Below are positions 51,546 through 60,423 of a stretch of DNA of 64,000 nucleotides, in pieces. The stretch's first letter is position 1, and the number at the start of each line of letters is the position of its first letter. Source of the stretch: Streptomyces venezuelae (GTDB lineage: Bacteria > Actinomycetota > Actinomycetes > Streptomycetales > Streptomycetaceae). The translations under genes were made by a program, and so were the position numbers. The stretch is taken from positions 7,936,001 through 8,000,000 of the forward strand of contig NZ_CP029192.1 of assembly GCF_008642315.1 (NCBI RefSeq), read 5' to 3'. A model generated the notes under the pieces. The model worked only from the letters and a program-made list of their open reading frames with translations. It was not told where the DNA came from and made no database searches.

Positions 51546-52460
51546 ATGGCAAGCAGCACTGTTCGGCCGAGCACACAGGGCAGTTCCCCGGAGGGCGATG
51601 TCGCCCGGCGGCTGTTGGACTCGGCTGCCGTGCTGGCGTACGACCCGGCCGTCGAAGTCGACTGGGACACCCCCCTCGACCGCGACTGTCACGGCGCGAG
51701 CCCGGAGTGGAGCACGCTCTACGGCACCGCCTACTGGCGGGAGATGACCGAGGCGCAGCGCAAGGAGCTGACCCGGCAGGAGGCCGCCTCGGTGGCCAGC
51801 ACGGGCATCTGGTTCGAGATGATCCTGCAGCAGATGGTGCTGCGCGACGTCTACGCCAAGGACCCGACAAGCACCGAGGTGCAGTGGGCGCTCACCGAGA
51901 TCGCCGAGGAGTGCCGGCACTCCATCATGTTCGCCCGCGGCGCCGAGAAGCTGGGTGCCCCCGCCTACCGCCCGCGCCGCTGGGCCACCGAACTCGGCAG
52001 GGTCTTCAAGTCCGTCGCGTTCGGCGAGGCCGCGTACGCCGCGATCCTCGTCGCCGAGGAGGTCCTCGACGTGATGCAGCGCGACTGGATGCGTGACGAG
52101 CGCGTCGTGCCGTTCGTCCGCACCATCAACAACATCCATGTCGTCGAGGAGTCGCGGCACATGAAGTTCGCCCGCGACCAGACGCGCAAGCAGCTCGCGG
52201 GAGCGGGCCGGGTGCGCCGCGAGATCAACTCCCTCATCATCGCCATCGCGTCGTACGTCATCGTCACCAGCATGGTGAACCGCAAGGTGTACGCGAACGC
52301 CGGACTCGACGAGGAGCGCGCCGTCGCCGAGGCGAAGGCCAACGAGCACCACAAGTCCATGATGCGGTCGAGCTGTTCGGGCCTCATGGAGTTCCTCGCC
52401 TCGTGCGGTCTGCTCACCAAGCCGGCCCTGGTCTTCTACAAGCGCGCCCACCTCATCTGA
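51546..52460 (+). CDS. AurF-like diiron oxygenase
   Basis: Ferritin-like non-heme diiron protein, 304 aa. Metal ligands are clear: Glu91, EIAEECRHS (Glu/Glu/His at 121-125), AEEVLDVMQ (about 171), and NNIHVVEESRHMKFA (His198, Glu201/202, His205). The repeated ExxRH-type motif matches AurF/CmlI N-oxygenases and related uncharacterised proteins. ATG 51546 is preceded by AAGGAG. The next gene supplies electrons. Mycobacterium tuberculosis Rv0885-fprB has, to my recollection, the same pairing. Substrate unknown; amine N-oxygenation is only one option. Confidence 0.83.
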   Translation: MASSTVRPSTQGSSPEGDVARRLLDSAAVLAYDPAVEVDWDTPLDRDCHGASPEWSTLYGTAYWREMTEAQRKELTRQEAASVASTGIWFEMILQQMVLRDVYAKDPTSTEVQWALTEIAEECRHSIMFARGAEKLGAPAYRPRRWATELGRVFKSVAFGEAAYAAILVAEEVLDVMQRDWMRDERVVPFVRTINNIHVVEESRHMKFARDQTRKQLAGAGRVRREINSLIIAIASYVIVTSMVNRKVYANAGLDEERAVAEAKANEHHKSMMRSSCSGLMEFLASCGLLTKPALVFYKRAHLI

Positions 52461-52500
52461 GCCGATCCGAGCCGAGCCGACCCGAGTTGAGCCGACGAAC

Positions 52501-54162
52501 ATGACCTACGCCATCACCCAGACCTGTTGCAACGACGCCACCTGTGTCGCCGTGTGCCCGGTCAACTGCATCCACCCCACGCCGCAGGAGCGGGCGTTCG
52601 GCAGCACGGAGATGCTGCACATCGACCCGAGGACGTGCATCTCCTGCGGCGCCTGCGCCGACGCCTGCCCCGTCGACGCGATCTTCCCGGTGGACACCCT
52701 GCCGGTTGCGCAGCGGGAGTACGCCGCGATCAACGCGGCCTACTACGACGACGCGACGGGGGAGGGGGCTCCCGAACCGGACCCGGCAGGACCCAACTTC
52801 CACGTCTGGGGCGAGCCGTCCTTCCCGCGCGTCCTGCCCGCGGACTTCGCGCCGCTGAAGGTCGCCGTCGTCGGCACGGGCCCCGCCGGGATGTACGCCG
52901 TGCAGGACCTGCTGCTCCACACCAGCGCCGAGGTCACCCTGATCGACCGGCTCCCGGTCGCCGGCGGACTCGTGCGCTACGGCGTCGCGCCCGACCACCT
53001 CGCGACCAAGAAGGTCGGCGAGACCTTCGCCCGCTTCCACGCACACCCGCGGGTACGGATGCACCTCGGCCTCGACGTGGGCACCGACGTCACCCCGGAA
53101 GAGATCGCGGCCCACCACGACGCGGTCGTCTACGCCGTGGGCGCGTCGGCCGACCGGCGCCTGTCGATCCCCGGCGAGGAACTGCCCGGCAGCATCTCCG
53201 CCACCGCGTTCGTCGCCTGGTACAACGCCCACCCCGACGCGGCGCCGGACGGCATCGACCTGTCGGCGGAGCGAGCGGTCGTCGTCGGCAACGGCAACGT
53301 GGCCCTGGACGTCGCCCGGATCCTGCTCGCCGACCCCGAGACCCTCGCCCGCACCGACATCGCCGACCACGCGCTGCGCGCCCTGCGTGACAGCAAGGTC
53401 CGCGAGGTCGTCCTGCTGGCCCGGCGCGGTCCCGAGCACGCCGCGTACACCACGTCCGAACTCCTGGCCCTCAAGCATCTGCCGGGCGTTGACCTGGTCG
53501 TCGACGACCACGACCCGCGCGTCGCGGACGCCGTCGAAGCCGCGGGCGCCAAGGACAAGGCGGCGGTCCTGCACGGCGTCACGCGCACACGCCCGGACTG
53601 GGAACGGCAGCCGGAGCCCGGCCGCCGCATCGTGCTGCGCTTCCACTGCGGACCCGCCGAAGTCCTCGGCACGGAACGGGTCGAAGGGGTGCGCGTGGAG
53701 ACGGCCGCGGGGGAGGAGTCCATCCCGGCGGGCCTGCTCCTGCGCGCCATCGGCTACCGCGGCACGCCCGTCGCCGGACTGCCCTTCGACGAGACCGGCG
53801 GCACCGTGCCCCACGAGGGCGGCCGGGTCGAGGGACGGCCCGGCACCTACGTCGTGGGCTGGATCAAGCGCGGCCCCAGCGGCGGCATCGGCGCCAACCG
53901 CACCTGCGCCGCCGAAACGGTCACCACCCTCCTCGCCGACGCGGTCGCGGGCGCGCTGCCCGCCCCGCTCCACGCCACGAAGGCCTTCCACCGGCTGGTG
54001 CGCCGCCGCAATCGCCACGTGGTCGACGCACGAGGCCTCGCCGCCATCGAACGGGCCGAGGTGACCCGGGGCGCGAGCGCGGGCCGCCCGCGCGTCAAGA
54101 TCGCCACGGTCGCCGAACTCGTCTCCACGGCGAGGTCGGGCCGGACGGGTCTCCTGCGCTGA
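52501..54162 (+). CDS. FprB-like fusion: ferredoxin plus NADPH-ferredoxin reductase
   Basis: 553 aa two-part redox protein. Residues 1-60 are a bacterial 7Fe/8Fe ferredoxin: Cys9, 15, 19, 23 in CCNDATCVAVCPVNC and Cys46, 49, 52, 56 in CISCGACADACP. Residues ~118-553 are an adrenodoxin-reductase-type domain with FAD motif VAVVGTGPAGMYAVQDLL, NADPH motif VVVGNGNVALDVARILL, and C-terminal GWIKRGPSGGIGANR. Same architecture as M. tuberculosis FprB. It transfers electrons from NADPH, presumably to the AurF-like protein 40 bp upstream. The 40-bp gap consists of degenerate GAGCCGA repeats. Confidence 0.87.
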   Translation: MTYAITQTCCNDATCVAVCPVNCIHPTPQERAFGSTEMLHIDPRTCISCGACADACPVDAIFPVDTLPVAQREYAAINAAYYDDATGEGAPEPDPAGPNFHVWGEPSFPRVLPADFAPLKVAVVGTGPAGMYAVQDLLLHTSAEVTLIDRLPVAGGLVRYGVAPDHLATKKVGETFARFHAHPRVRMHLGLDVGTDVTPEEIAAHHDAVVYAVGASADRRLSIPGEELPGSISATAFVAWYNAHPDAAPDGIDLSAERAVVVGNGNVALDVARILLADPETLARTDIADHALRALRDSKVREVVLLARRGPEHAAYTTSELLALKHLPGVDLVVDDHDPRVADAVEAAGAKDKAAVLHGVTRTRPDWERQPEPGRRIVLRFHCGPAEVLGTERVEGVRVETAAGEESIPAGLLLRAIGYRGTPVAGLPFDETGGTVPHEGGRVEGRPGTYVVGWIKRGPSGGIGANRTCAAETVTTLLADAVAGALPAPLHATKAFHRLVRRRNRHVVDARGLAAIERAEVTRGASAGRPRVKIATVAELVSTARSGRTGLLR

Positions 54163-55125: not shown

Positions 55126-56517
55126 TCAGGCGCGGGCGTCGAGCAGGGTGCCCATCCACTCCTCGACGCCCGCGACCGTGCGCGGCAGGGCGCCCGACAT
55201 CAGGCGGGCGCCCTCCGCCGTGACCACGAGGTCGTCCTCGATCCGGACGCCGACGCCGCGCAGTTCGGCGGGGAGCGTCTCGTCGTCGGGCTGGAGATAG
55301 AGGCCGGGCTCCACGGTGAGGACCTGGCCCTCCTCCAGGACGCCGTCCAAGTAGGCCCCGGCGCGCGCCTTGGCGCAGTCGTGCACATCGAGCCCGAGCA
55401 TGTGGCCGCTGCCGCACAGGGTGTAGCGGCGGTGCAGGTCCCCCCGCGCGTCCTTCAGCACGCCCCACTCGGCGAGCCCCTCCGAGATGACGCGCATCGC
55501 CGCCCGGTGGAAGTCGCGGAAGCGCGCGCCGGGACGCAGCGCCGCGATGCCCGCGTCCTGGGCGGCGAGCACCAGCTCGTACACCTGGCGCTGGACGGGG
55601 GAGAAGCGGCCGGAGAGCGGCAGGGTGCGGGTGATGTCGGCGGTGTAGAGGCTGTCCGTCTCCACGCCCGCGTCAAGCAGCAGGAGGTCGCCGCGGTCGA
55701 GGCGTCCGTCGTTGCGGATCCAGTGGAGCACGCAGGCGTGGGCCCCCGAGGCCGCGATGGTCTCGTACCCGGTGCCGTTGCCCTCGGCGCGGGCGCGCAG
55801 GCCGAACACCCCCTCGATCCAGCGCTCCCCGCGCGGATGCGCCAGCGCGCGCGGCAGTGCACGGACCACGTCCTCGAACCCGGCGGCGGTGTGGTCGACG
55901 GCCAGCTGTAGCTGCTCGACCTCCCAGGCGTCCTTGACGAGCCGCAACTCGGCCAGTGCGGCGGCCAGTTCGGGGTCGGCGGCGGCGTTGCGGCCCGTCG
56001 GCGCGCCCAGGGAGTCCAGGTGGGCGCAGCGGATGCCGGTGAGCCGTTCCGCCTCGGCGAGGTCGGGGCGGCGACCCACCCAGAACTCGCCGTAGCGCCG
56101 GTCCCGGTAGAACTCCTCGTCGCCGTCGACACGCGGCGAGCGCGGCCGCAGGTACAGCACGGCCTCGTGCCCGTGCGGCCCCGAAGGCTCCATCACCAGC
56201 ACGCCGCCGGCCTGGTCCTCACCGGTCAGCCCGGTCAGCCAGGCGTACGCGCTGTGCGGCCGGAAGCGGTGGTCGCAGTCGTTCGAACGGACCGTGAGCT
56301 CGCCCGCGGGCACGATCAGCCGCTCGCCGGGGAAGCGGGCGGACAGCCGCGCCCGGCGGGCCGGGGTGACGGCGTGCGCGGGGACCCGCGCGGAGTCGGG
56401 CAGGGCGGACGGTGCCCAGGCCTCCGCCATGAAGCGGGAGAGCTCGGCGGAGGCGGGCAGGTCGTGGCTGCCGGTGTGGAGGGTGGCGGCGGATTGCGGC
56501 ATGCCGGATGCGGTCAC
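55126..56517 (-). CDS. M24 family aminopeptidase P (Xaa-Pro)-like
   Basis: 463 aa from GTG 56517 (GGGAG 6 nt upstream; ATG 56502 is an alternative). Pita-bread metallopeptidase. The dinuclear metal ligands are Asp in LLLLDAGVET and TADITRTLPL, His in GSGHMLGLDVHD, Glu in LTVEPGLYLQ and Glu in VRIEDDLVV. An aminopeptidase-P N-terminal domain is present (SNDCDHRFRPHSAYAWLTG). It removes residues ahead of proline. It ends the minus-strand gene string that starts with the GCISAT-repeat peptide, so leader trimming is conceivable. Housekeeping pepP is equally possible. Confidence 0.83.
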   Translation of the reverse strand: MTASGMPQSAATLHTGSHDLPASAELSRFMAEAWAPSALPDSARVPAHAVTPARRARLSARFPGERLIVPAGELTVRSNDCDHRFRPHSAYAWLTGLTGEDQAGGVLVMEPSGPHGHEAVLYLRPRSPRVDGDEEFYRDRRYGEFWVGRRPDLAEAERLTGIRCAHLDSLGAPTGRNAAADPELAAALAELRLVKDAWEVEQLQLAVDHTAAGFEDVVRALPRALAHPRGERWIEGVFGLRARAEGNGTGYETIAASGAHACVLHWIRNDGRLDRGDLLLLDAGVETDSLYTADITRTLPLSGRFSPVQRQVYELVLAAQDAGIAALRPGARFRDFHRAAMRVISEGLAEWGVLKDARGDLHRRYTLCGSGHMLGLDVHDCAKARAGAYLDGVLEEGQVLTVEPGLYLQPDDETLPAELRGVGVRIEDDLVVTAEGARLMSGALPRTVAGVEEWMGTLLDARA

Positions 56518-56572: not shown

Positions 56573-57085
56573 TCACATAACCGGGGTGTCCGCCAGAGTC
56601 GCGATCTCCGACAGGGGCATCTCGAGCACTTCGTGCAGGAACCGCACGACCGTCCAGTGCGGCAGGGCGTCCTCGTCGTACGGGCCGAACGCGGCGGTGT
56701 AGAGGGGGATCCAGCGCAGCGCCTCCTCCGCCGCCGTCTCACGGCCCGGCTCCTGCTGATAGGTGTCGTACGACACGCTCCGGTGGTGGATGAAGTGGCC
56801 CCCGGGCAGCCGCTGTTCGCACAGTTCCCGGTACTCCCGGGTCTGCAGGATCAGGTAGTGCCAGATCTCGTCGATGTCCTGCTCGACGGGGAGGAAGAGC
56901 CCGGCGAGGCGGTCGGGGTGGCGGGAGACCAGGTAGAGGTAGCGGAGGCACTCGCGGACCTGGTGGGTGACGTACGTGAGGTCCGGGGCGTCGGGCTTCG
57001 CCGCGAAGTGCCGTACGACCTCGGCGTGCAGGTCGGAGCCGAGCAGCTCCTCGGCGGTGGGGGCGTGCGTTACGGACGTGGGCAT
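56573..57085 (-). CDS. GRDP/DUF1399-like protein of unknown function
   Basis: 170 aa, cytoplasmic. The diagnostic stretch is QDIDEIWHYLILQTREYREL followed by GGHFIHHRSVSYDTY. This His-rich pattern resembles DUF1399 / glycine-rich-domain-containing proteins (DxFWHxxILxTRxYxxFC...FIHH). The invariant His and Asp residues could bind a metal or be catalytic; no reaction is established. It lies 70 bp after the PaaK-like gene and 55 bp before the M24 peptidase gene, all on the minus strand. Start ATG 57085 is chosen by similarity of the N-terminus to a compact domain. Confidence 0.65.
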   Translation of the reverse strand: MPTSVTHAPTAEELLGSDLHAEVVRHFAAKPDAPDLTYVTHQVRECLRYLYLVSRHPDRLAGLFLPVEQDIDEIWHYLILQTREYRELCEQRLPGGHFIHHRSVSYDTYQQEPGRETAAEEALRWIPLYTAAFGPYDEDALPHWTVVRFLHEVLEMPLSEIATLADTPVM

Positions 57086-57155: not shown

Positions 57156-58376
57156 TCACTGGGGCGCGGCCAGCCAGGCGTACTTGCCGGAGTGCCCGAT
57201 CGGCACGTGGTCGCGGTACTCCACACGGCAGACGCGTCCGGTCAACGCCGTGACCGTCGCGGTGAGTTCGGCGGTCTCGCCGGGGGTGAGCGGTCTGCCG
57301 TCGAACGTCGTGCACCACAGGTCGCAGCGGTCGTCGCCGGTGAGGTGCAGCTGGTGCAGGAAGACGCGGGACGAGGCCGCGGCGACCCCGGCGTCCAGGT
57401 CGGCCTGGGCCACGGGGCCCGCGGGCGTGGCGAGCAGCTCCTTCTCGCGGCCGCAGAAGGAGACGATCCGCTCCGGGTCGGGGCTGCCGTCGGCGGTGCG
57501 GACGCAGTCGCCGGAGCGGTAGCGGACCAGCGGCATGTACGGGTTGCGGACACTGGTGACGATGAGGCTGTGGATGCCACTGCCCGGCTCCACCGGAATC
57601 AGTTCCACGCTCATGTCGTGGAGGTAGGGGCGGTAGCGTCCTTCGCCCTCGCTGTAGAAGAGGTAACCCAGTTCCGTGCTGCCGAAGAGGTCGACGATGG
57701 GACAGTCGAAGTGGGTGCGCAGATACGCGCGCACGTTCAGCGGCGTGTACTCGTAGGCGTGGATGATCCCGGCCGGACGCGGGAACAGGGCCCACAGGTC
57801 CCACTCGGTGACCTTCCGGACCAGGTGCGCCAAGTGGTAGCTGGAGCAGTCCAGGAGGTAGGCGCCCGTGGGATGGGCGGCGCTCACCTCGCGGATCTCG
57901 GTGAGCATCCGCTCCACCTCGACGCGGTCCCAACCGTCCGGATCCAGCTGCCGGTTGAGGTACAAGGTCCGGTGGTCCAGCCAGCGTTCGCCGGGCGTGG
58001 CACCCGGTTTGCGGGCGTTGACGCGGGCGACGTGCTCAGTGGCGAGGACGGTGGTGAGCGAGATGCGCCGTGCCTCCGCGTGCCAGAGGGCGCCGAGTTC
58101 GGGGTGTTCGCTCCACAGGCGGTAGTAGGAGCGGAGCAGGAAGTACGGCGGCCGGATGAGCTGCATGCGGGCGTGGTTGGTCCCGGTGGACAGCACGAAC
58201 TCGGCGTCGCCCGTCTCCAGGGCCCGCTCCAGTTCGGGGGTCATCCAGTTGGCCGGGAAGTCCCGGGCGATCTCCGGCTTCTCCAGGACGGGGAAGTCGC
58301 CGCGCTCGACGGACGCGCGGTACAGGGGGATGTCCCGGACCTGGTCCAGGACGTCGGCGCTCGGCAGGCGGTTCAA
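57156..58376 (-). CDS. PaaK/CoF-synthetase-like adenylate-forming enzyme
   Basis: 406 aa, ANL superfamily enzyme that activates a carboxylate as acyl-AMP. Visible: the phosphate loop FVLSTGTNHARMQLIRPP (short, with no Lys), the A5-like GSTELGYLFYSEGEG, and the hinge segment VRYRSGDCVRT. Closer to phenylacetate-CoA ligase/F390 synthetase/LuxE types than to NRPS domains. The start appears to be TTG 58376 (GGAG 5 nt upstream). No carrier-protein gene is adjacent; instead a small repeat peptide lies 156 bp upstream, so the carboxylate may belong to that peptide (inference). Confidence 0.72.
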   Translation of the reverse strand: MNRLPSADVLDQVRDIPLYRASVERGDFPVLEKPEIARDFPANWMTPELERALETGDAEFVLSTGTNHARMQLIRPPYFLLRSYYRLWSEHPELGALWHAEARRISLTTVLATEHVARVNARKPGATPGERWLDHRTLYLNRQLDPDGWDRVEVERMLTEIREVSAAHPTGAYLLDCSSYHLAHLVRKVTEWDLWALFPRPAGIIHAYEYTPLNVRAYLRTHFDCPIVDLFGSTELGYLFYSEGEGRYRPYLHDMSVELIPVEPGSGIHSLIVTSVRNPYMPLVRYRSGDCVRTADGSPDPERIVSFCGREKELLATPAGPVAQADLDAGVAAASSRVFLHQLHLTGDDRCDLWCTTFDGRPLTPGETAELTATVTALTGRVCRVEYRDHVPIGHSGKYAWLAAPQ

Positions 58377-58532: not shown

Positions 58533-58706
58533 CTAGGAGATACAGCCGGTCTTGCCGGTGGCGCTGATGCAGCCGCTCTTCGGCGTCGCGCTGATGCAGC
58601 CGTCCTTCGCGCCCGCGCCCTGGGCCGAGTTGACCGCGACCCACTTCTGCCAGACGGACTCCTGCGTCATGCGCTTGATGAGCTGTTCCACGGTGGAAAC
58701 CTCCAT
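58533..58706 (-). CDS. Putative RiPP precursor peptide with GCISAT repeats
   Basis: 57 aa from ATG 58706; GTG 58691 (52 aa) has the better ribosome site, GGAGG 8 nt upstream, whereas the ATG has none and abuts a hairpin. Leader-like N-terminus: MEVSTVEQLIKRMTQESVW then QKWVAVNSAQGAGAKD. The C-terminal 22 residues are a repeated unit: DGCISATPK, SGCISATGK, TGCIS. Each carries Cys, Ser and Thr at fixed spacing, and the last repeat ends the protein. This is the architecture of a ribosomally made, post-translationally modified peptide with a repeated core. I do not recognise the class. It lies upstream of a PaaK-like enzyme, a DUF1399-like protein and an M24 peptidase on the same strand. Confidence 0.72.
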   Translation of the reverse strand: MEVSTVEQLIKRMTQESVWQKWVAVNSAQGAGAKDGCISATPKSGCISATGKTGCIS

Positions 58707-58830: not shown

Positions 58831-60423
58831 TCAGACCTTGGCCTTGGCCTTGGGCTTCGCCCCGGCCTTCGTCTCGGCCTCGGCATCGACCGCGGACGTG
58901 GCCTCGGACCCGGCCGCCGGAAGCGTCTTCATCCGTACGGCTTCCGTGTCGCTGTCGTTGTGCCGCAGCGCCCAGTTCTCCAGCGTCGTGCGGCAGGCGT
59001 GGTCCAGGTGGCGCACGGCCGTCAGGTCCAGCTCGATGGGGCGGTCCTGGGGCATGGCCTCCAGGGTCTCCAGGATGCGGGGGAGCCGCAGGAACGTGGC
59101 GTTGCCGGTGAGCGTCACCACCATCCGCCCGTCGGTCAACTCCCGTACGTCCACGTGGACATGGGAGGTGTCCCAGGCGGACTTGGCCACCGCGAGCACC
59201 AGGCCGAGGATGACGCCCTCGAACATGTTGGTCACCACGATGGCGATCGCCGTGACGGCCAGGACGACGGCCTCGCCGCGGTGGGTGCGGGCGAGCGGGA
59301 CGATCTCCTTGACGGGGATCAGCTTGCAGCCCGCGTGCACCAGGACGCCGGCGAGTGCCGCGAGGGGGATGATGCCGAGCGCGGCAGGCAGGAGCACCGC
59401 GAACAGCAGCAGCCACGCGCCGTGCAGGATGCGGGAGAGCGGGGTGCGGGCCCCGGCCTGGACGTTGGCGGAACTGCGCACGATCACCGCGGTCATCGGC
59501 AGGGCGCCGAGCACACCGCACACCGTGTTGCCGACGCCCTGGGCGACGAGCTCCTTGTCGTAGTGCGTGCGGGCACCGTCGTGCATGCGGTCCACCGCGG
59601 CCGCGCTGAACAGCGACTCGGCCGACGCGATCAGGGTGAACGCGAGGACGGTGCCGAGCACCGCCACGCTCCCCAGCCCGGCGAGGTCACCGAAGCCGGG
59701 CGGCTGGATGGCGTCGACCATGCCGCGCACCGACACGTTCGCCACGTCGAGGCCGAACCCGGCGGTCACGGCCGTGGCGAGGGCCACGGCGGCCAGCGGG
59801 GCCGGCACCACACGCGCCGCCGATGGCAGCTTCGGCCACAGCACGAGGACGGCGATCGTGCCGAGTCCGACGGCCGCCGCGGTCAGCGCCGTGGTGTCCC
59901 CGACCGTGTCGGCGAGCAGCCCGGGCAGACCGGTGATCTTGTCCATGCCGGAGAGGGGCTGCTTCGCCCCGGCCATGGTGTAGAGCTGGCCGAAGATCAG
60001 CACGAGGCCGATGCCGGCCAGCATGCCCTGGACGACGGAGACCGATATCGCGCGGAACCACCGGCCGCAGCGGAGCAGACCGAGGGCGATCTGGAGCGCG
60101 CCGGTGAGCAGCACGATCGCGCCGAGCATGCTCAGCCCGAACTCGCGCACGGCTTCGAAGACGAGCACGGTGAGACCGGCGGCCGGGCCGCTCACCTGGA
60201 TGGCACTGCCCGGCAGACAGCCGACGACCAGACCGCCGACGATGCCGGTGACCAGGCCGAGTTCGGCGGGCACGCCGGAGGCGACCGCCACGCCGACGCA
60301 GAGCGGCAGGGCGACGAGGAAGACGACGAGCGAGGCGAGGATGTCCCGGCGCAGCACGCCCGGTTCGCGCAGGGCGCGGAAGGGGGAACGGAGGGAGGCG
60401 GGAGAAGGGGGCAGGGAGGACAT
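58831..60423 (-). CDS. SulP family anion transporter with STAS domain (bicarbonate-type)
   Basis: Integral membrane transporter, 530 aa. About eleven to fourteen hydrophobic spans start with VLRRDILASLVVFLVALPLC. The SulP motif is AVASGVPAELGLVTGIVGG. A cytoplasmic STAS domain occupies residues ~400-500 (VRELTDGRMVVTLTGNATFL ... RPIELDLTAVRHLDH). The C-terminus is Lys/Ala-rich. The gene lies 53 bp downstream of a beta-carbonic anhydrase on the same strand, a pairing that points to bicarbonate/CO2 handling rather than sulfate (inference). Confidence 0.85.
   Translation of the reverse strand: MSSLPPSPASLRSPFRALREPGVLRRDILASLVVFLVALPLCVGVAVASGVPAELGLVTGIVGGLVVGCLPGSAIQVSGPAAGLTVLVFEAVREFGLSMLGAIVLLTGALQIALGLLRCGRWFRAISVSVVQGMLAGIGLVLIFGQLYTMAGAKQPLSGMDKITGLPGLLADTVGDTTALTAAAVGLGTIAVLVLWPKLPSAARVVPAPLAAVALATAVTAGFGLDVANVSVRGMVDAIQPPGFGDLAGLGSVAVLGTVLAFTLIASAESLFSAAAVDRMHDGARTHYDKELVAQGVGNTVCGVLGALPMTAVIVRSSANVQAGARTPLSRILHGAWLLLFAVLLPAALGIIPLAALAGVLVHAGCKLIPVKEIVPLARTHRGEAVVLAVTAIAIVVTNMFEGVILGLVLAVAKSAWDTSHVHVDVRELTDGRMVVTLTGNATFLRLPRILETLEAMPQDRPIELDLTAVRHLDHACRTTLENWALRHNDSDTEAVRMKTLPAAGSEATSAVDAEAETKAGAKPKAKAKV

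Follow-up and report, generated by a model that had tools for sequence, protein, structure and literature searches.

The window analysed here, 64,000 nucleotides of Streptomyces venezuelae (positions 7936001-8000000 of an 8.94 Mb single-contig genome), contains what, judging from its sequence, is probably a RiPP-type biosynthetic cassette of an undescribed class, whose chemistry we infer. Its genes follow each other on the same strand in the order peptide, PaaK-type ligase and GRDP ('glycine-rich domain-containing', DUF1399-like protein), often with a gene for an MFS transporter after them. We think it likely that the peptide is a ribosomal precursor that is modified by both partners, i.e. the ligase and the GRDP.

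The gene of the precursor-like peptide (58533..58691, minus strand) has a GTG start and a TAG stop and encodes 52 residues, MEQLIKRMTQESVWQKWVAVNSAQGAGAKDGCISATPKSGCISATGKTGCIS, as derived from sequence, alignment and homologues. The first-pass annotation had proposed an open reading frame of 52-57 residues at 58533-58706 of the minus strand. The sequence reads as claimed, and the peptide is genuine, conserved and translated in the proposed frame, but of the two lengths the shorter one is most likely: GTG 58691 is preceded by a Shine-Dalgarno-like GGAGG (58700..58704, minus strand), whereas the upstream ATG that would give 57 residues overlaps this Shine-Dalgarno sequence. The N-terminus of the peptide family reads M[ED]xL[IV], with ATG as first codon in 72, GTG in 8 and TTG in 1 of 81 loci. 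As the relatives begin in this way and GGAGG lies just before it, GTG 58691 is most likely the start, which a gene caller trained on the window also picks. Residues 1-28 (58608..58691, minus strand) form a leader-like segment, as defined by the column identities of 81 aligned peptides, in which L4, W14, W17, N21 and S22 are constant. According to the alignment it is followed on the same strand by three units, K-D-G-C-I-S (58590..58607), K-S-G-C-I-S (58563..58580) and, at the C-terminus, K-T-G-C-I-S (58536..58553). The repetition at codon level that had been noted is partial: units 1 and 2 share GGC TGC ATC AGC, whereas unit 3 reads GGC TGT ATC TCC. At E 0.01 neither Pfam nor NCBIfam yields a match for the peptide.

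The 81 loci comprise the window and the best 80 of 128 relatives of the ligase, identified by a scan with the ligase alignment in one genome per GTDB species, so that the set leans to near kin of the window ligase. In these loci the repeated unit is Lys-x-Gly-Cys-Ile/Val-Ser, with 240 GCxS units in 81 peptides. Lys is found two residues before Gly in 239 units and Arg in one, the residue in between is free, and the third position of GCxS is occupied by Ile (229) or Val (11). Cys-Ile-Ser, earlier suggested as the modified unit, is thus too small, since the preceding Lys and Gly are as constant as Cys and Ser. Single decayed units, left out of the 240, are GCIC in L108, GYIS in L143 and GRAS in L160; such decay would be expected of redundant equal cores. 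Peptides have three (70 loci), two (7) or four units (4) and a length of 42-59 residues, 39 in L166. Neighbouring units are spaced by 9 residues in 125 of 159 pairs, by 8 in 25, by 12 in 4, by 7 in 2 and by 10, 11 and 17 in one pair each, i.e. the strict 9-residue register described for the window dominates but is not kept across the family, where the constant part is K-x-G-C-[IV]-S. The C-terminus lies exactly after Ser in 77 of the 81 peptides, three having an extra Arg and one a decayed last unit, and the L166 peptide ends in Lys-Gly. The extra Arg and the Lys-Gly end argue against activation of a free Ser carboxylate.

In a protein search 48 of 49 candidates were homologous at E<=1. Those with an organism name belong to Streptomyces or Kitasatospora, and the top match, at E 5e-29, may stem from the window strain or close kin. 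The sources mostly label the proteins of the cassette as hypothetical protein, phenylacetate-CoA ligase or glycine-rich domain-containing protein. In a genome search with a cut-off of E<=0.01, 38 genomes matched and 37 were kept, so that the peptide is found in 37 of 295 Streptomyces genomes (own genome included), with one match per genome. The match in G270 was dropped (E 0.002, 29% identity, internal stop), and its locus, L043, is without a peptide match. Two loci, one from Kutzneria viridogrisea (L140) and one from a genome of a further family (L166), indicate that the peptide family reaches beyond Streptomyces. The median dN/dS of the peptide is 0.36 (range 0.05 to 1.85; computed from the 3172 of 3240 pairs that fell into the synonymous range chosen), i.e. 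the peptide is under purifying selection. Judged by homologues, distribution and dN/dS, it is not a product of chance. The first-pass annotation had named as evidence against itself a peptide that is not conserved where its flanking genes are; instead, none of the 80 loci found via the ligase lacks the peptide, nor does the window, and in 81/81 it lies just upstream of the ligase on the same strand. Conversely, of the 37 loci fetched via the peptide 36 have a peptide match, and in these the ligase adjoins the peptide in 35 and GRDP is present in 34, the exceptional loci, L044 (which lacks the ligase) and L048, stopping at contig ends. In the open-access literature we found no description of the repeats; a listing in a large genome-mining table is possible.

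The ligase (57156..58376, minus strand, TTG start, 406 residues) was assigned to the PaaK-type adenylate-forming (ANL) enzymes by families, alignment and structure model. The motif residues STGT, FGSTE, SGD, GR and SGK are invariant in 59 of 59 aligned sequences, and the model (pLDDT 85.5) has PaaK1, ClxA, NatL2 and AjiA1 among its best structure matches. As predicted by the model, the window ligase has the PaaK-type ANL fold together with the catalytic motifs, and its nearest named family, NF045666, is matched with 31.3 bits against a cut-off of 300. In 80 of the 81 loci the GRDP gene (in the window 56573..57085, minus strand, 170 residues; identified by homologues, alignment and model) either directly follows the ligase on the same strand or is fused to it, the exception (L089) being cut by a contig end. 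In S. cremeus P0210 ligase and GRDP are one protein of 550 residues, and in WAC 01529 (L084) they form one open frame of 572 codons, with a separate GRDP of 171 residues on record. The MFS transporter cluster is found within the counted span in 58 of 81 loci (50 of the 67 loci with full span) and absent from it in 23, including the window (17 of 67); one member matched PF07690 in Pfam and the rest were assigned by clustering.

Neither a dedicated protease nor a known RiPP recognition element was seen conserved across the compared loci. The GRDP model is all helical (pLDDT 82) and a structure search matched no clear solved fold; the PqqD-like RiPP recognition element we take to be a winged-helix fold. 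Among 12 diverse relatives P66, D72, W75, H76, T82, Y85, C89, F98 and H101 of GRDP are invariant, which suggests a metal or Cys-His site. PF27765 is the precomputed database label for nearly all of the 120 GRDP matches listed, and the Pfam scan gave no match to it.

GRDP also occurs outside the cassette. Strong matches (E below 1e-70) were found in 7 of 394 sampled genomes of the class. Two loci of another family of the class, L164 and L165, contain homologues with E 1e-33 and 1e-35, here directly after a different peptide of 34 residues (MTIEE..., ending NCW[AV]DI[KE]) and followed by genes for an aminotransferase-like PLP enzyme, a flavin monooxygenase and a radical SAM protein, forming a candidate RiPP cluster (L164:8394-13745; L165:4278-9631). 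The radical SAM protein of L164, the only one scanned, reaches 613.7 bits against TIGR03975 (rSAM_ocin_1; cut-off 281.85). Close GRDP relatives of this type are limited to these two loci among 250 genomes of that family. By gene content, this context independently supports the idea that GRDP works with ribosomal precursors and, together with the ligase-GRDP fusions, makes GRDP a candidate precursor-binding or processing partner. More distant GRDP proteins have a Cys-rich tail (L182:9100-9546, L183:9085-9582, L184:9214-9690, L185:1259-1732, L170:8578-9075); in L182-L185 a phosphotransferase-like gene adjoins, with weak thiamine-kinase matches for L182 and L184, and near some of these Cys-tailed GRDP genes there are what we take to be DUF397-like or XRE-like genes.

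Regarding class membership, the cassette combines a short gene-encoded precursor under selection, which consists of a conserved leader-like part and a repeated core-like part, with conserved adjacent enzyme genes, as is typical of RiPPs. Enzymes of the lanthipeptide, azol(in)e (YcaO), radical SAM, MNIO and PEARL types are absent from the nine window proteins at 51.5-61.4 kb scanned against NCBIfam and Pfam (the ferredoxin reductase judged on 25 of the 59 NCBIfam matches listed); the other loci were compared by clustering. As far as sequence comparison tells, no known RiPP class fits the cassette. The earlier proposal of a multi-unit RiPP-like precursor of unrecognised class is well supported by the conserved leader-like part, the varying number of units, the fixed partners and the second, unrelated RiPP context of GRDP.

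An alternative that we regard as unlikely is that the peptide serves as a ribosomal thiol carrier rather than being the product itself. In this case the ligase would attach an acid, as a thioester, to the Cys in each unit, the loaded acid would be transformed by GRDP and host enzymes, a small non-peptide molecule would be released and exported, and the repeated units would raise capacity, like tandem carrier domains. This would suit the constant Cys, the MFS pump in 58 of 81 loci and the fact that a protease gene was not seen conserved among the compared loci, and, according to the accessible parts of the sources, PaaK-type ligases normally pass acyl groups to a thiol (PMC7204872) and small peptides act as carriers in 3-thiaglutamate biosynthesis (PMC9303977, PMC9016710). 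However, Lys, Gly, Ile/Val and Ser of the unit are conserved about as well as Cys, and the 3-thiaglutamate payload, as described in these parts, is added at the C terminus, whereas the cassette unit recurs internally.

Upstream of the peptide the window contains genes for a SulP-family anion transporter (58831..60423, minus strand; family scan, genome searches, tree) and a carbonic anhydrase (PF00484; 60477..61118, minus strand; family scan, genome searches). Within ~7 kb of the ligase SulP is found in 45, carbonic anhydrase in 43, either in 50 and both in 38 of the 81 loci (37, 35, 41 and 31 of the 67 loci with full span), and neither in 31 of 81 (26 of 67). Leaving out two short SulP genes, SulP lies upstream on the same strand in 11, upstream on the opposite strand in 11, downstream on the same strand in 19 and downstream on the opposite strand in 2 loci. 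In 11 of the 15 cassette genomes of at most four contigs (not in G031, G069, G094 and G154) a separate SulP-carbonic anhydrase pair is near the cassette, chance proximity being ~0.3% per genome by simple arithmetic, given about two separate SulP genes per genome. Separate pairs also exist away from any cassette, and in 23 of 25 genomes (these 15 and 10 without cassette; not in G066 and G069) SulP and carbonic anhydrase matches occur elsewhere in one long open frame. In a tree of 43 cassette-linked and 20 non-linked SulP genes, the latter hand-picked from the better-scoring separate copies, linked genes fall into several clades mixed with non-linked ones, requiring 7 changes, of which well supported branches impose at least 4; the tree was built by a quick method, with SH-aLRT as the sole support measure and some long branches flagged. 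On the ligase tree the arrangement has to change 21 times, a number to which losses or contig ends may contribute. Owing to the mixed clades and repeated changes, the linkage seems to have arisen repeatedly, and in our estimation the link of the two genes to the cassette is likely functional.

In a further reading, the ligase would adenylate a carbamate formed from CO2 on the Lys amine. A backbone amine, Cys or Ser would then accept the carbonyl, so that each unit acquires a urea, carbamate or thiocarbamate link, and carbonic anhydrase and SulP would supply the bicarbonate. We consider it improbable. The nearly invariant Lys and the apparently repeated recruitment of carbonic anhydrase or SulP in 50 of 81 loci would agree with it, but the loci where both genes are missing nearby and the other copies in the genomes, which in 23 of 25 include SulP and carbonic anhydrase matches in one long open frame, do not, and we know of no PaaK-type ligase that adenylates a Lys carbamate. 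A precedent is syringolin, whose ureido carbonyl stems from bicarbonate/CO2, carbamylation of valine by the sylC product being hypothesised in the accessible part of the source (PMC2773804). Slightly more probable than the carbamate route, and a little less so than the thiol carrier, is a combination in which a stand-alone PaaK-type ligase uses the tandem units as gene-encoded thiol carriers or as sites of carbonylation, GRDP positions them as a new kind of precursor-binding partner and bicarbonate from the linked genes enters the product or is its target. Least probable is a role outside natural products, as a small thiol/metal-binding protein with an accessory enzyme pair, e.g. in zinc sensing or buffering tied to carbonic anhydrase, for although the usually three Cys per peptide, the constant D, H, C and H of GRDP, which could bind metal, and the linkage to carbonic anhydrase would fit, the constant Lys, the redundant equal units, the adenylating enzyme, the frequent MFS gene, the patchy distribution and the GRDP in an rSAM RiPP-type cluster argue against it.

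As to transcription, 75 of 81 loci have a promoter element, TTGAC-N15-19-TAnnnT, in the 300 bases before the peptide, compared to a mean of 0.38 and a maximum of 2 loci in 200 rounds of mononucleotide shuffling. A fuller element, TTGACA-N4-CTTGG-N5-CNTTTAC, scanned with one mismatch allowed, is present once each in five of six cassette genomes, always at the cassette, while the sixth has no match. In 59 of 81 loci a further TTGA or TTGG begins 11 bases after TTGAC, in a region ~65-140 bases ahead of the peptide start, and the two could form a regulator site of direct repeats. The TTGAC element is missing in the window, L084, L085, L086, L103 and L151, and a simple promoter/terminator scan of the window region found none. 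Of these six loci, the window and L084-L086 have same-strand genes for carbonic anhydrase and SulP immediately upstream, L151 has SulP alone and L103 neither. Given this arrangement and the missing element, the window peptide may be read from further upstream, SulP and carbonic anhydrase possibly being in the same transcript. A general rule that an upstream SulP replaces the element fails, as 7 other loci with same-strand upstream SulP have it.

Other neighbours are less constant. A gene that lies upstream of the cassette and is oriented the other way (L036:10503-12212) encodes a presumably HypX-like protein with formyltransferase and enoyl-CoA hydratase domains, its cluster occurring in 11 of 81 loci. 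In the window an M24 aminopeptidase P-like gene (55126-56517, minus strand) directly follows GRDP and is not conserved there in relatives. Genes for an AurF-type diiron oxygenase and then a ferredoxin/FAD reductase (51546-54162, plus strand) converge on the neighbours of the cassette, a pair close to it in few near relatives only.

For the preferred reading, a RiPP-type cassette, we propose that GRDP would bind the leader and hold the peptide for the ligase, which would adenylate a carboxylate and transfer the acyl group to a nucleophile of each unit, likeliest the Cys thiol or the Lys amine, or alternatively close an amide or ester within the unit. In our view there is a little less than an even chance that Lys, Cys or Ser of the unit is what the ligase acylates or crosslinks. 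Host proteases may then cut the units apart near the conserved Lys, and the small products may be exported by the MFS pump or, where it is absent, by another pump. Carbonic anhydrase and SulP might supply the pathway with bicarbonate/CO2 or, if the product acts on inorganic-carbon handling, shield the producer from it. The redundant units, the purifying selection, the ligase and GRDP partners and their fusions, MFS, the promoter element and the GRDP in an rSAM cluster count for this reading; the fact that no conserved protease or recognition element was seen in the compared loci, the loci without MFS gene, the absence of the promoter element from the window and five other loci and a GRDP without solved fold count against it. 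If true, this would be a RiPP class built around an adenylate-forming ligase as key enzyme and the first role for the GRDP/DUF1399-like domain, in a cassette present in about one in eight sampled Streptomyces genomes without the class-marking RiPP enzymes by which clusters are usually recognised. The repeated carbonic anhydrase/SulP linkage provides a concrete, testable target or substrate hypothesis and, as the core is compact with three genes, it can be rebuilt in a laboratory host.

Among known systems, NatL2, ClxA, AjiA1 and PaaK1 share the predicted fold and the adenylation motifs with the cassette ligase, but at 13-20% identity in structural matches, and only the cassette ligase is linked to a ribosomal peptide. 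NatL2, from a benzoxazole pathway, shows according to the accessible part of the source that an enzyme of the PaaK type can form an ester directly rather than a CoA thioester (PMC7204872). Separate SulP and carbonic anhydrase pairs consist of the same two genes as the cassette-linked ones and occur in Streptomyces without the cassette, whereas linked pairs recur beside it. In clusters of the rSAM_ocin_1 type, as in L164 and L165, a GRDP homologue directly follows a short peptide gene just as GRDP accompanies the cassette peptide, but the peptide, the tailoring enzymes and the organism group differ, the nine scanned window genes being without radical SAM. Finally, the 3-thiaglutamate (pearlin) systems, in so far as the accessible parts of the sources describe them, use a ribosomal peptide of ~50 residues as working platform, like the cassette peptide, but have the payload added at the C terminus and employ a PEARL-type enzyme, which the nine scanned window genes lack, whereas the cassette pairs its repeated internal units with a PaaK-type ligase and GRDP.
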